Below are positions 43,646-50,323 of a stretch of DNA of 50,399 nt, piece by piece. The notes below the pieces were generated by a model, which searched no databases, was not told where the DNA came from, and worked only from the letters and a program-made list of their open reading frames with translations. This DNA is from a virus, in IMG/VR virus record IMGVR_UViG_3300020180_000023, positions 1-50,399 of that record. One strand, 5' to 3'. Each line of letters opens with the position of its first letter. The stretch's first letter is position 1. A program made the position numbers and the translations under genes.

Positions 43646-44156
43646 ATTGAGATAAAACCGGCCCTGTGAGGTTACTAGTTATTTTTTAAGAGACTGAAAG
43701 AGGAACTGACTGGAGCAGAGGGATTATATAGAGTGGGCAAGTGAGATATGCGAGCCCTCCAGTGGGTATTAGGTGAGGATAGTTGAGGATAAACGATTCT
43801 GGAGACTTTCCATATATTTTAAAAGCCACCCCTGTCCATATGCGCCTATACGAATGGTAATAATTCGAAAAACCCCCCACCCCCTAGCAAACTTCGGACC
43901 GTGAGCGCTCGAGAAATGCGCTCAAAGCAAAGCACGTTCCAAGACAAATGCTTGACGCAAATTCGAGAGAGCACAAGCAAATCCCATGCCCGATGTAAGT
44001 CTAGTAACTACGCAAGTAGTGAATATGGGCCTATTGACGCATTAGATGCCCGCCATTGAACGCGTGAGGGTCTAGGTGCTACGGGTCAAATATCCAATCC
44101 AAATGAAGCCTTGCCCTTCTAATAACTTCGCCCTTTTCTTACATACCTAACGAAAA

Positions 44157-44263
44157 CCTAACGACGCTCCCTAACACAAACCTAACGACGCTCCCTAACA
44201 CAAACCTAACGACGCTCCCTAACACAAACCTAACGACGCTCCCTAACACAAACCTAACGACGC
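44157..44263 (+). repeat. 24-bp tandem repeat, 4 units plus partial
   Basis: Four exact units (44157-44180, 44181-44204, 44205-44228, 44229-44252) and 11 bases of a fifth. The unit is two related halves, CCTAACGACGCTC and CCTAACACAAA, giving CCTAAC about every 11-13 bases. One more CCTAACGAAAA precedes it. It lies in non-coding DNA and looks like iterons or binding-site clusters. Confidence 0.92.
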
Positions 44264-44285
44264 AAGTCCTTTGTTTTCAAGGTGT

Positions 44286-44320
44286 TATAACATCAATCAC
44301 GGCATGTTCGGCACGCTTCT
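44286..44320 (+). repeat. CGGCATGTT element, copy 1
   Basis: ATAACATCAATC, one base, then CGGCATGTT. The same string with one different base recurs at 50129-50150. Related CCGGCATTTT elements are at 47866 and 48755. Confidence 0.65.
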
Positions 44321-44708
44321 TGCTTGCGTTTTTAACTGGCATAACACTTGCTTGTGAGACGAAGCGTAATACGTCGCACGAAATGACACGTAACGCTCCT
44401 ATTTCGCTATAAATCCGAGAAAAATCCAACCGAGTAATGGCAATGGGTTACGACTGAGTGTTTTCAATGGGTTAGAGCTAACCCTAGCAACGGTGCCGCA
44501 CTAAATTCTGAAACGAAGGTAAGACCTAGAAAACAAACAGCTTGGAGCTTTTGCAGCGGAACGCTTTTGAAACGGCTGGCCTATAGGTAGAGAGACTCTG
44601 GATTCAAGCCCGATTCTCTTGTTTGGTCTTTCACAACTAAGCTTGCTTCCACGCGTGAGACGCTAACGAGCCTATCTAGGCTCAATGGCCAGTAACGCAT
44701 GGTGACAA

Positions 44709-46192: not shown

Positions 46193-46224
46193 CCTTGCCT
46201 TTAACCCTTAACTCGGAGATTTCA

Positions 46225-47673
46225 ATGGCTCGCATCACCATGTCTCACGAATGGTTCTCGAAGATTCTGGCGGATTACTCCAATTGGCTTTTTGCTTGGG
46301 CAAGGGAAGCGGGGCAAAACTCGCTTGACGCGGGCGCTACCGCAATCCGTTGCAACGTCGAATTGCGCGACGGAAATACAGTTGTCGAATGGGCCGACAA
46401 CGGTAAGGGAATGAATCGAAGCGTGCTCGAAACGCGCTTCATGGCCGTTGGCGGCTCGCTAAAGGGCAACGGCGACGCGGGCGGTTTCGGTGTCGCAAAG
46501 CTCGTGTTGGCTTTCGCTCAAGTTTGCTATTCGATTCGAACGGGTTTCTTGTTCGTCACTGGCCGTAATGACGAATACGAAATCATGGAAACGAGCGAAG
46601 AGGTTAAGGGTCTTACCCTAACCGTCACCATGGCCGGTGACGTTGTGCAACGGTTTACCGAATGCGTCGAGCATTGGGTTAGGCATACGACACCGAACCG
46701 GCCGGTTTGGTTCTATCTCAACGGCCAAGCCTTGCGTTTCATGCCTTCCCTTCCTGCGCCCGCGAGTGTCCAGGATTGGTGTTCGATTCACGTTCTCAGT
46801 GTCGAGGATAACCCGAAGCTTAAATCGGGCGTGAAGGTTAGAATCAACGGCCAGTATATGTTTAATACTTGGTCGGAGGTTTCCTCTTGCATTCTTGTGG
46901 AGCTTACCGGGTCAAGCCTTGTTTACCTCACGTCCAATCGTGACGGTTTACAGGGTGGGTATCGTGACAAGCTTTCGAAGCTTATTAGCCTCATGACGAA
47001 AGACCCTGACGTTTTGTGCGATACCGAATCCGACAAAATCGAGCTTTACGCGGGTGAGCTTGGTCCGGCCGTCGGGGGCGCGATTGATACGACGCAAGCC
47101 CATGGCCGTAAGCTTGTGACGAACAAAGCGCCCGATACGGTTACCGTGTTTGACGGCGAGCCTACCGCAATCGCTTCGGGTGATTCGGACGATTCGTCGT
47201 ATGGCTCTGAAGTTTGCGAGCGTCCCAGCGCTAAGGTTAGCGGGAACGATTTGGTTATCATGAATAAGACGAACAAGCCTATTCCGCACAAGTATACCGT
47301 GGTCGGGATGCGTCCCATGGAATGGCGCCTCTTCGCGAAATGGACGCGCATTGTCCAGGCTTGCGCTACGGCTTTGGGCGTTCGTCGTGCGATTCGCACG
47401 GGATGGGTTTTCTCTACCAGCGCCCGCGCTATGCACAAGAGGAATGAGAAGCTTGGAACGCTCGTGTTGCTCAATCCGTGCGAGCTTGAAGGCAACGAAT
47501 GGGTTAAGGGTTTCGACACTTCTAAGGATTCGTTCTTTACCCTCGTTAGCCTGGCGGTTCACGAGCTTACGCATATCACGCATAGCTACCACGACGAGGA
47601 GTATGCTAGTGCGCTGACGCGTAACATGGCGGTTATTTTCGCTAACATGGCTTTGATTAACAAGGCCAAGTAA
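46225..47673 (+). CDS. GHKL (MutL/Hsp90-type) ATPase fused to HExxH metalloprotease-like domain
   Basis: 482 residues from the ATG five bases after GGAGA (an upstream in-frame start lies on the promoter motif). ATPase: N-box EAGQNSLDAGAT (Glu28, Asn32), like MutL ELVENSLDAGA; strand pair IRCNVELRDGNTVVEW; G1 box DNGKGM (Asp58); G2-like GDAGGFGVAK (83-92). The centre is a transducer-like alpha/beta part and a Ser/Asp-rich linker near 325-335. The C-terminus has VHELTHITHSYHDEEY with His446, Glu447, His450 and His456, an HExxHxxxxxHD zinc site as in WLM/Wss1 or metzincin proteases. No sensor or HNH is seen. The gene stands alone, GC-rich, with its own promoter motif. ATP binding is well supported; proteolysis is inferred. 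Confidence 0.85.
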   Translation: MARITMSHEWFSKILADYSNWLFAWAREAGQNSLDAGATAIRCNVELRDGNTVVEWADNGKGMNRSVLETRFMAVGGSLKGNGDAGGFGVAKLVLAFAQVCYSIRTGFLFVTGRNDEYEIMETSEEVKGLTLTVTMAGDVVQRFTECVEHWVRHTTPNRPVWFYLNGQALRFMPSLPAPASVQDWCSIHVLSVEDNPKLKSGVKVRINGQYMFNTWSEVSSCILVELTGSSLVYLTSNRDGLQGGYRDKLSKLISLMTKDPDVLCDTESDKIELYAGELGPAVGGAIDTTQAHGRKLVTNKAPDTVTVFDGEPTAIASGDSDDSSYGSEVCERPSAKVSGNDLVIMNKTNKPIPHKYTVVGMRPMEWRLFAKWTRIVQACATALGVRRAIRTGWVFSTSARAMHKRNEKLGTLVLLNPCELEGNEWVKGFDTSKDSFFTLVSLAVHELTHITHSYHDEEYASALTRNMAVIFANMALINKAK

Positions 47674-47825: not shown

Positions 47826-47866
47826 GATTAAGTAGCGTTAGATTTGTTCTAACGTTTTACTTAATC
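47826..47866 (+). other. Long hairpin ahead of the repeat field
   Basis: GATTAAGTA (47826-47834) pairs with TACTTAATC (47858-47866), and inside CGTTAGA (47836-47842) with TCTAACG (47848-47854), loop TTTGT. That is 16 base pairs with one small internal bulge. It runs directly into the CCGGCATTTT element. Confidence 0.75.
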
Positions 47867-47898
47867 AAAACCGGCATTTTGCGTGTCATTTGCGTTTC
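47866..47898 (+). repeat. CCGGCATTTT element, copy 1
   Basis: AAAACCGGCATTTT then CGTGTCATTTGCGTTTC. The copy at 48755-48790 is nearly the same (one G absent, one T changed to C). Both stand at the left side of a group of GAGACG repeats. Confidence 0.7.
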
Positions 47899-48479
47899 TT
47901 GCTCCCGAGACGCATTTGCAACGTTTCATTTGCGTCTGAGACGCTTTTGATACGATTCATTAGCGTGTCATTCGTTCCATATGCGACTCTTGAGACGTAT
48001 TTGAAACGGAAATGAGACGCTAAAGAGACGAATGAGACGTAAAAGAAACTAATAGCTAAATATGAATGAAACGTAAATGTGATGAATAGTTCGTTTCACA
48101 TAAACATTCCCAGCTTCGAAACGAAGTGAATAATTGGATGAGACGTAAATGTGGTAATGGTGAAAAGCGGAGGAATGCTGGCGCCCTGTCGGTGGGGCGT
48201 GGTATGGGGCCGCGTAACCGATTTTGCCCAAATTAGTAGAAAATACGTAACCTGTGGCCCAGTCCCCAGTTAGGGCGTGGAATTCCCATCTAGACCTAAA
48301 CACTTGGGAATGCTACGATTAGGACGCGCCCATCCCTCTTCTGTCACCCTAACGCCCGAAATTCTCCCCTCGCCTTACGTTACCTTTTGTGGGTTCTGTG
48401 CCTATACAGTTGAAGTTAGCTTGGTAAGGTTTGCTCGGCGGGAGTTTTTATTTAAAAATACTTTGTAGTGGAGAATATT

Positions 48480-48581
48480 GTGATTACTGACCCAATCATC
48501 ATCGCTGCTATCCTGTGCTTCGCCTGTTTCGTGGCCGGCTTTATTATTGGGCGCACTGACGGGAAGCGCGCGAGGTTTTAA
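48480..48581 (+). CDS. Small single-pass membrane protein
   Basis: 33 residues from GTG after GGAGAATATT. ITDPIIIAAILCFACFVAGF followed by IIGRTDGKRARF: one membrane helix, then a basic cytoplasmic end. TAATG couples it to the next gene. Function unknown; small phage membrane proteins often act on the host envelope. Confidence 0.55.
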   Translation: MITDPIIIAAILCFACFVAGFIIGRTDGKRARF

Positions 48582-48703
48582 TGATTATTCTAGTGACGGA
48601 TGAAAAGGGCCACGCCTATATTATCGTTGTGCCGGACGTAAAAATGGATGAAGTCCAAGAGCTCGCTAAGGGCATGTTGGTAAGCTTGCGACCACAGGTA
48701 TAG
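48581..48703 (+). CDS. Small unknown protein
   Basis: 40 residues, starting in the stop of the membrane protein gene. MIILVTDEKGHAYIIVVPDV then a helix. No family recognised. Confidence 0.5.
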   Translation: MIILVTDEKGHAYIIVVPDVKMDEVQELAKGMLVSLRPQV

Positions 48704-48754
48704 AATGCCAAAAATCATTATAAATCAACTATGTTTATTCTACAAAGTTTTATA

Positions 48755-48790
48755 TCAACCAAACCGGCATTTTCGTGTCATTTGCGTCTC
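48755..48790 (+). repeat. CCGGCATTTT element, copy 2
   Basis: ATCAACCAAACCGGCATTTT followed by CGTGTCATTTGCGTCTC; see copy at 47866. It again stands before a GAGACG cluster, just past small genes. Confidence 0.7.
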
Positions 48791-49062
48791 ATGGCCTCTG
48801 AGACACTAATGCTCCCAATGCGAGACGCTAATGCTCCTATTATAAGTCCTTTGTGGTCATAGCTCTTCTCTATTCGCGAATAGGGAACAGTGAGACGCAT
48901 TTGAAACGGTTTCATTTGTGTCTTCCCAACGCTCCCGCCTGCCCACCCTCCCACCATTATAAGGAATAGGAATAATACGCTTATGGGACGGACTGGATGG
49001 GACCCACATGGACGAGACGTAAATGACCCCGATGGGATGAATGGAAAATACGGTATTAAATT

Positions 49063-49101
49063 TAATAACATAAGTCCTTGTGGTGTAACTAAACTATTAA
49101 A
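49063..49101 (+). repeat. 39-bp direct repeat, copy 1
   Basis: TAATAACATAAGTCCTTGTG and 19 further bases ending AACTATTAAA. It matches 49566-49604 at 38 of 39 positions. Both copies lie downstream of GGACGAGACGTAAATGACCC. Confidence 0.9.
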
Positions 49102-49565
49102 ACGCGAGACGCAAATGAGACGAACGAAAACCGAACATGAGACGCTAATGCGACGGGAGCTTTTCCGCGTCATTTTTCGCGGTTCGTCCCGGTGCGCCCC
49201 ATTGTGGTGAGACAGTTGCCAATAGGAGACACTAATGACACGAACCAATAATCGGCTGAGACGCTAATGGAACAAATGCATATGCTCCGCATTATTTTAA
49301 TGTCATAAGTTGTTTAGTTTCAATAAATGATTATTTTAATCCTCTACATATGGAACTTTCTCCCCATACAGGTATTGAGCATAAGACGCATTTAATACGA
49401 AAATGAGACGAAAATGCCCCAAAAACACTGAAACACATATGAATCACACTTAAAAAAAGTGAAACGTAAACGTTCCCGGCTGCGAGACGCTAATAAAACG
49501 AACGGAAACCGAACGGAGGCCGAATATGAGACGACCTGGACGAGACGTAAATGACCCACATGGGA

Positions 49566-49604
49566 TAATAACATAAGTCCTTGTGGTATAACTAAACTAT
49601 TAAA
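49566..49604 (+). repeat. 39-bp direct repeat, copy 2
   Basis: Second copy of the 49063 repeat, one base different. The flanking GACGAGACGTAAATGACCC is shared but its distance differs (about 30 bases less), so a larger module was duplicated and then lost bases. Confidence 0.9.
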
Positions 49605-50323
49605 TTCATTTTTGGTGTTGTAGAACATAGGCGAGCTTACCACCCAGGAGGAAAGTGGCATCGGCGTCCATATTTTAATCATAAGTCTATATAAATGACA
49701 TTAAAACTTGATTAAACTCAATTGGGGTCATTTTCGCTCATTAAACCTCAAATGCGTTATATGTAAACCAAACAGGCTGGGACGCGCGAGACGCTAATGG
49801 GCCAGAAAAACGCTGAGACGGAAATGGGAAGGTTAGACGTAAACGGTCCCGACCGCGAGACGTATCTGGAACGGACTGAGACACAAAGGAGGCGATGGGC
49901 GAGACGCAAAGGACACGAACAGAGCCCGAACCATCGCCCTAACAAAACCCTTAAAAATCGTTAAAAATACTTTATAGTTAAATATAAATAGAATACAAAT
50001 ATATAGTAAGGGAGCAGTTAGGGTCCGCCTGAGAAGAAGTCGCGCCGAGCGAAAGCCATGAGCGGAACCGCGCGCCCGCGCGTAGCAATCCTCATACCGT
50101 CATAAAGGCGGTTAAAATAAGGAGTTTCATAACATCAATCCCGGCATGTTGGCATACTATTTGCTATATGACGCGGTGCGTATCAAGCCGGACGGCCAGC
50201 GTTACGTTTCATGCACGTAAACAGTTGGGGCATAAGGAGATATGATTAAAATTCCTTTGTTTTTAATATTCGTGGAACAATTGTTTCCATCCGGCCACTG
50301 CAACCGAACCGTAGCATACTGAA
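49605..50323 (+). other. Non-coding right end
   Basis: No convincing gene. It contains the last GAGACG repeats, an AAAAATACTTTATAGT string at 49963-49978 that recurs with one change at 48454-48469 before the membrane protein gene (possible promoter), a GC-rich patch near 50040-50095, and the CGGCATGTT element at 50129. A 26-codon frame at 50241 has AAGGAG only two bases from its ATG. Confidence 0.5.
50129..50155 (+). repeat. CGGCATGTT element, copy 2
   Basis: ATAACATCAATCCCGGCATG plus TT, the partner of the element at 44286. Shared bases include the ATAACATCAATC run. The copies lie 5.8 kb apart. Confidence 0.65.

Follow-up and report, generated by a model that had tools for sequence, protein, structure and literature searches.

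Near the right end of a viral DNA record we found a field of degenerate 11-bp direct repeats that is confined to one locus, is phased with the DNA helix, occupies the same place in two relatives, and is conserved on both strands and inside genes. The field is a selected signal in duplex DNA, and chance, RNA, a peptide, and a decoy based on the hexamer GAGACG can be set aside as its explanation. We regard it as roughly an even bet that the field is an extended cis-acting, putative protein-assembly site that serves the anchoring or segregation of the genome or the start of its replication.

The window, i.e., the whole stretch analyzed, is the complete IMG/VR record IMGVR_UViG_3300020180_000023, a linear sequence of 50,399 bp that is probably a genome fragment. 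Its DNA had no match in the phage collection, and its terminase was just ∼24–34% identical to those of known phages. The terminase and portal genes are on the minus strand, and, judging by conserved relatives, the capsid gene is predicted to lie there as well. Both the gene strand and the GC skew switch at ∼40 kb, and the GAGACG field is on the right side of this switch, at 47.85–49.95 kb. A preliminary description of this DNA had counted 22 GAGACG on the plus strand against one CGTCTC in positions 47907–49906, and our count was the same, with the single CGTCTC (a minus-strand GAGACG) at 48785. After dinucleotide shuffling of these 2 kb (1000 replicates), GAGACG occurred 0.5 times on average and four times at most. 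This density is confined to the field, and the remainder of the 50-kb window contained a total of 16 GAGACG. The features of the window are listed below.

44146–44263, plus strand: 24-bp tandem repeat CCTAACACAAACCTAACGACGCTC (4.9 copies, 97%), just left of the satellite cluster and inside a 1.3-kb stretch without clear ORFs.
44309–44352, plus strand: sigma54-type −24/−12 matches, CGGCACGCTTCTTGCT at 44309 and TGGCATAACACTTGCT at 44337, which are consensus matches only.
44309–44665, plus strand: satellite iteron cluster, mostly plus (44313, 44359, 44388, 44513, 44561, and 44660), with one minus-strand site (44372).
46195–47673, plus strand: GHKL/HATPase_c-like protein of 492 amino acids that adjoins the field (Pfam match below the cut-off).
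47870–48160, no single strand assigned: left sub-cluster of the main field, with inverted CATTTGCGT copies at 47876–47993, tandem plus-strand iterons in 11/9-bp steps at 47992–48045, and single sites to 48151.
48480–48703, plus strand: stretch devoid of iterons that separates the two sub-clusters and contains two possible small ORFs (GTG start, 48480–48584; ATG start, 48581–48703).
48768–49910, plus strand: right sub-cluster of the main field, with ∼24 plus-strand iterons and a few on the minus strand (48774, 48785, and 49166–49195).
48840–48857, plus strand: second repeat family, TAAGTCCTTTGTGGT, with more copies at 49066–49100 and 49570–49604, and CAAGTCCTTTGTTTTC at 44264.
49006–49101 versus 49534–49604, and 49456–49520 versus 49829–49893: local segmental duplications in the right sub-cluster.
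50150–50165, plus strand: TGGCATACTATTTGCT, a sigma54-type match right of the field and within a copy of ATAACATCAATCMCGGCATGTT, which is also present at 44.28–44.31 kb.

The repeat unit is a degenerate, asymmetric 11-bp sequence, TGRSACGCWWW, of which GAGACG is just one portion. A short seed extended to a matrix on the window sequence alone gave T-G-A-R-A-C-G-[C/T]-A-A-A-T-G with a second ACG 11 bases on, and matrices grown separately in two relatives, G001 and G002, gave TG[A/G]NACGCA[A/T]NTG with the same echo at +11. The window matrix, TG[A/G][N]ACG[C/T]A[A/T]NTG, also takes in GAAACG, GACACG, and other variants. The recovery of an 11-bp direct-repeat unit by the matrix bears out the proposal that GAGACG is the core of a degenerate 11-bp iteron. 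The statement that GAGACG is mostly followed by (C/T)(A/T)AATG was too strong: exact YWAATG follows 8 of the 22 copies, so that the unit as a whole is looser than the hexamer, its best-preserved part. A “mirror set,” CATTTGCGT, had also been described at the left flank; the sequences are present there, but they are not a separate set, being the 11-bp unit on the minus strand (47876–47993 and 48768–48790).

Sites were counted with one fixed ten-column matrix at a threshold of >7 bits. The window field had 45 sites (33 plus, 12 minus) in 47850–49950, compared with 3.7 in shuffled sequence; the G001 field had 132 (92 plus, 40 minus) in 4.1 kb (shuffled, 8.6), and the G002 field had 150 (106 plus, 44 minus) in 4.5 kb (shuffled, 9.5). 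Chance or base composition as the source of the field was ruled out by the shuffles, by position nulls, and by matrix-free lag tests. A simple tandem repeat was also rejected, given that only short local arrays were detected, and the DNA between most sites is unrelated, so the sites are not products of one amplification. The unit resembles the sigma54 −24 element (TGGCACG), yet TGA was more frequent than TGG and no −12 element occurred at the right distance, and an array of such elements was therefore discarded. Further single 17–18-mer matches in IMG/VR (L013–L015 and L043–L048) were isolated and without a field, and were taken as chance. A known RNA family was not indicated, as neither the window region nor L037 matched Rfam.

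The preliminary description had noted phasing at 9–11 bases in places, and this phasing is real. Nine same-strand pairs in the window were exactly 11 bp apart, when the mean of 2000 random placements was 0.5 and the maximum was 4; in G002 and G001, there were 36 and 33 such pairs, with random maxima of 10 and 8, respectively. The plus-strand sites share a period of 10.4–10.6 bp over distances to 110 bp. In G001 and G002, this periodicity exceeded all 500 random draws and persisted when lags 11 and 22 were removed, and in the window it was above the 95% level and not above the random maximum. A matrix-free measure, base identity at a fixed lag, peaked at lag 11 in all three fields (3.4–3.7 standard deviations), and no lag-11 peak was present in the neighboring coding DNA. 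Between minus- and plus-strand sites, no significant mutual phasing was detected.

The terminase query returned three records with 62–64% amino-acid identity, of which G001 (35 kb) and G002 (177 kb) were of sufficient length for the field to be seen. The repeats are thus kept by the nearest relatives, and the field lies 10–15 kb right of the minus-strand terminase, a position matching that in the window. Full-sized fields are known in these two relatives, and the G001 record stops inside its field. In the 177-kb G002 record, which was read directly in part, nearly all near-exact matches to the unit fell within 149.6–153.4 kb and almost none elsewhere. A link to a GC-skew switch had been put forward as a check, and the field does lie near a switch in skew and gene strand. 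The sign of the skew flips within ∼2 kb left of the G002 field, where the gene direction also changes; the skew minimum of the window, at 40 kb, is 4–8 kb from the sites.

The capsid query returned 27 loci, many of them in records of 150–183 kb; one match was in a Hydrogenophaga MAG, which is only a hint of the host. G009, with 69% capsid identity, has a small plus-strand cluster (L077 10240–11020). Records at 60–63% capsid identity had no clustered field of the TGRSACGCWWW-type motif, and in the stretches examined they had no other 11-bp field, so the large field is restricted to a narrow clade. Several other elements were observed in these genomes. In the more distant G015, a small-gene block (L079 3900–6150) is dense in CGGCC and GGCCG, with 21 and 18 copies in 2.2 kb compared with ∼1 per kb in most of the remainder, and has no 11-bp phasing. 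G002 encodes a class-I release-factor-like protein with RF-1 and PCRF domains (L036 2724–3386) beside a B12-type ribonucleotide reductase, and L036 13770–13837 resembles the type-P1 twister ribozyme at a score below the threshold (33 bits; cut-off, 67). A cloverleaf-like element composed of CCCTGAAGGCAGGG, GTCGCAAATGCGAC, and CCGGTTCGAATCCGG was found at L037 3630–3690 and L036 5838–5900, with an iteron in its middle hairpin; its closing stem has changed yet is still complementary (GACCG/CGGTC versus GGGTCG/CGACCC).

The fields of G001 and G002 align over 2.7–2.8 kb with 84% identity. In noncoding DNA, 19 of 337 core columns had changed (5.6%), compared with 170 of 906 columns elsewhere (18.8%; p = 9e-10). 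Third codon positions, compared in five ORFs, had changed in 12 of 90 cases in the cores (13%) and 113 of 391 outside them (29%; p = 0.002), and fourfold sites showed the same trend, which was not significant (p = 0.08). All 19 minus-strand sites were kept, with changes at 3 of 133 core positions, as were 46 of the 56 plus-strand sites. In this comparison, G001 sites were queried against G002 with a matrix partly derived from these two genomes; the reverse query gave similar results, and conservation was lower on average with column-permuted matrices. Sites within ORFs occurred in all three frames and on both strands, which rules out a peptide repeat or a codon effect. Because conservation extends over both strands, all frames, genes, and gaps, the signal is read in duplex DNA.

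The binding of a protein to one face of the DNA best explains the 11-bp direct repeats and their helical phasing, in agreement with the earlier suggestion of a protein that coats the DNA. In such a mechanism, a sequence-specific protein would read the asymmetric unit TGRSACGCWWW, and the spacing of neighboring copies, one helical turn or an integral number of 10.5-bp turns, would align the bound molecules on one DNA face. The aligned molecules could form a directional filament or a wrapped scaffold over 2–4.5 kb, and this assembly would act like the parC-type direct-repeat centromeres or the p6-type nucleoprotein complexes. We infer that one protein may bind all copies cooperatively and either anchor or segregate the genome or help to start its replication, and we consider these two roles to be about equally likely. 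A packaging or recombination site, which had also been proposed earlier, is a further candidate role, as is a regulatory scaffold. A stronger form of this reading seems to us possible but on balance doubtful: the field would be a sequence-programmed, chromatin-like domain, in which an 11-bp helix-phased code over 2–4.5 kb of coding and noncoding DNA directs a phage protein to form a continuous one-sided filament.

Several observations argue against an assembly site. The parC-type sites described to date occupy short stretches of noncoding DNA; the field, in contrast, spans 2–4.5 kb and overlaps genes. In addition, the relatives with 60–63% capsid identity have no field, the two strands are not significantly in phase with each other, no candidate binder was found, and no tubulin, ALP_N, or ParA partner was found above the cut-off. 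A tubulin gene (TubZ, type III) was found in none of G000, G001, and the 177-kb G002, all records that may be incomplete, and the control for this search was positive. For ParA (type I ParABS), G002 gave a single match below the cut-off (13.8 bits against 27), and an actin-like ALP_N gene was absent from G002; in the StbA/ParM search, the control itself returned no match. Tandem 10–11-bp direct repeats, a trait of type II (ParMRC) centromeres, which adjoin genes for ParR (RHH) and the actin-like ParM, are present in the field, and the same repeats appear to be of the initiator-site kind found in iteron origins.

The strongest rival, which we nonetheless consider unlikely, is that the field is a regulatory scaffold whose role is in transcription, i.e., an oversized operator or silencer through which a phage or host regulator controls the small-gene block from a sigma54-type promoter. 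Regulators of the PhoB/OmpR type also read 11-bp direct repeats, in a 7+4 layout. Sigma54-type consensus matches lie at the flanks of the fields and on the same strand (window 44309, 44337, and 50150; L037 3409; L036 9381 and 9491), and a second repeat, (G/A)TAASTCCTTTGTTTTC, is present in several copies upstream, to the left of the G001 field (L037 3030–3400), and also occurs at L077 6010. This second family, located upstream of and within the fields, could serve the sigma54-type promoters as an array of enhancers. Furthermore, two genes of the more distant G008, the HATPase gene among them, are closely preceded by a different repeat, TTTACAYTTCYGTGACA, in four copies. The G008 repeat TTTACAYTTCYGTGACAMTTC, with four copies at L078 6215, 6270, 6334, and 7377 (G008 91211–92393) upstream of two genes including a HATPase orthologue, may be the equivalent of the iterons in this genome. 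HATPase orthologues were found in G002 (39%, right of the field) and G008 (30%) only; the HATPase and the field proteins have few or no relatives beyond the clade, and most have no Pfam function above the cut-off. However, the sites cover coding sequence on both strands over 4 kb, far past any promoter, and the window field overlaps almost no genes. The sigma54 elements are no more than consensus matches, and searches of G002 and G009 gave no gene for a sigma54 activator.

We give a lower probability, and see little prospect, for a classical iteron origin, in which a replication initiator bound to the repeats would melt an AT-rich element close by. The 11-bp direct repeats, the AT-rich islands of the window (82% AT at 49292, and another at 49950–50010), and the nearby skew and strand switch in G002 are consistent with such an origin. 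However, no AT-rich element occurs in the fields of G001 and G002, where the maximum was 63–68% AT per 60 bp, and this weakens the case for an origin, as does the distance of the window skew minimum from the sites. Moreover, 130–150 sites far exceed the number in any phage origin that we know of.

It is very improbable that the units act at the RNA level or in recombination, marking the joints of gene cassettes (a stop codon with an iteron pair, a T-loop hairpin, and an inverted iteron) for RNA processing or short-repeat recombination. In each of the five G001 field ORFs that were checked, the stop codon is joined to a pair of iterons, and in several cases a T-loop hairpin follows. These hairpins, which carry the tRNA-type TTCGATT on stems of 10–16 bp and resemble the top half of a tRNA, lie between the small field genes of G001 and G002 (L037 4836, 5534, and 5888; L036 7065, 7762, and 8124) and were almost never found in shuffles; local duplications in the window also fit this explanation. 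On the other hand, in-gene and minus-strand sites are equally conserved, a 10.5-bp phase is characteristic of duplex DNA, and no T-loop hairpin was found in the window or in the other loci scanned. Finally, a decoy for host enzymes had been suggested earlier. A field that served as decoy or target of a BsmBI/Esp3I-type host enzyme, restricting or modifying DNA at GAGACG, would account for the 22 exact hexamers in the window, but this explanation can practically be dismissed, because exact GAGACG is not maintained in the relatives, where the two bases before ACG (positions −2/−1) vary freely (A 65/G 23/C 11% and G 45/A 28/C 25%), because minus-strand sites are conserved too, and because conservation spans TG..ACG.A in 11-bp phase, more than an enzyme decoy requires.

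Among known systems, iteron origins such as lambda ori and the plasmid origins have direct-repeat initiator sites that may sit inside genes, with a few iterons by an AT-rich element. In contrast, the field has 10–30 times more sites, and the fields of the relatives have no AT-rich element. To our knowledge, the phage centromeres, origins, and operators described so far rely on few repeats, most of them outside coding sequence. Up to 150 helix-phased sites preserved at third codon positions amount to a second code over a gene block, and if a dedicated protein does coat the field, the field would be a rare phage example of genome architecture that is directed by sequence. The field supplies a clear bait sequence for finding the binding protein, and the combination of lag-11 phasing and third-position conservation is a general test for such domains in other viruses.

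The field resembles the type II partition system parC/ParR of R1 in having asymmetric direct repeats one helical turn apart; in parC, two iterons fit a 22-bp fragment, and ParR binding builds a superhelical scaffold (PMC4949242, PMC5016525). However, R1 parC consists of two sets of five iterons beside parMR (PMC4949242, PMC5016525), whereas the field has 45–150 degenerate sites over 2–4.5 kb on both strands, overlaps genes, and has no partner genes that we could find. In the alpS/AlpA system of the Corynebacterium prophage CGP3, phage-encoded repeated sites also couple viral DNA to a scaffold (PMC5539076), but alpS is made up of TTAAnnG copies within a single promoter region (PMC5539076), so that motif and scale differ, and no actin-like ALP_N gene was detected in G002. 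The p6 protein covers phage DNA with about one contact per helical turn, every 12 bp in phi29 and every 11 bp in GA-1, and acts in replication and in a transcription switch (PMC10899789); a protein on the field would likewise contact the DNA about once per turn. Whereas p6 reads bendability and not sequence (PMC10899789), the field has a clear motif under selection.
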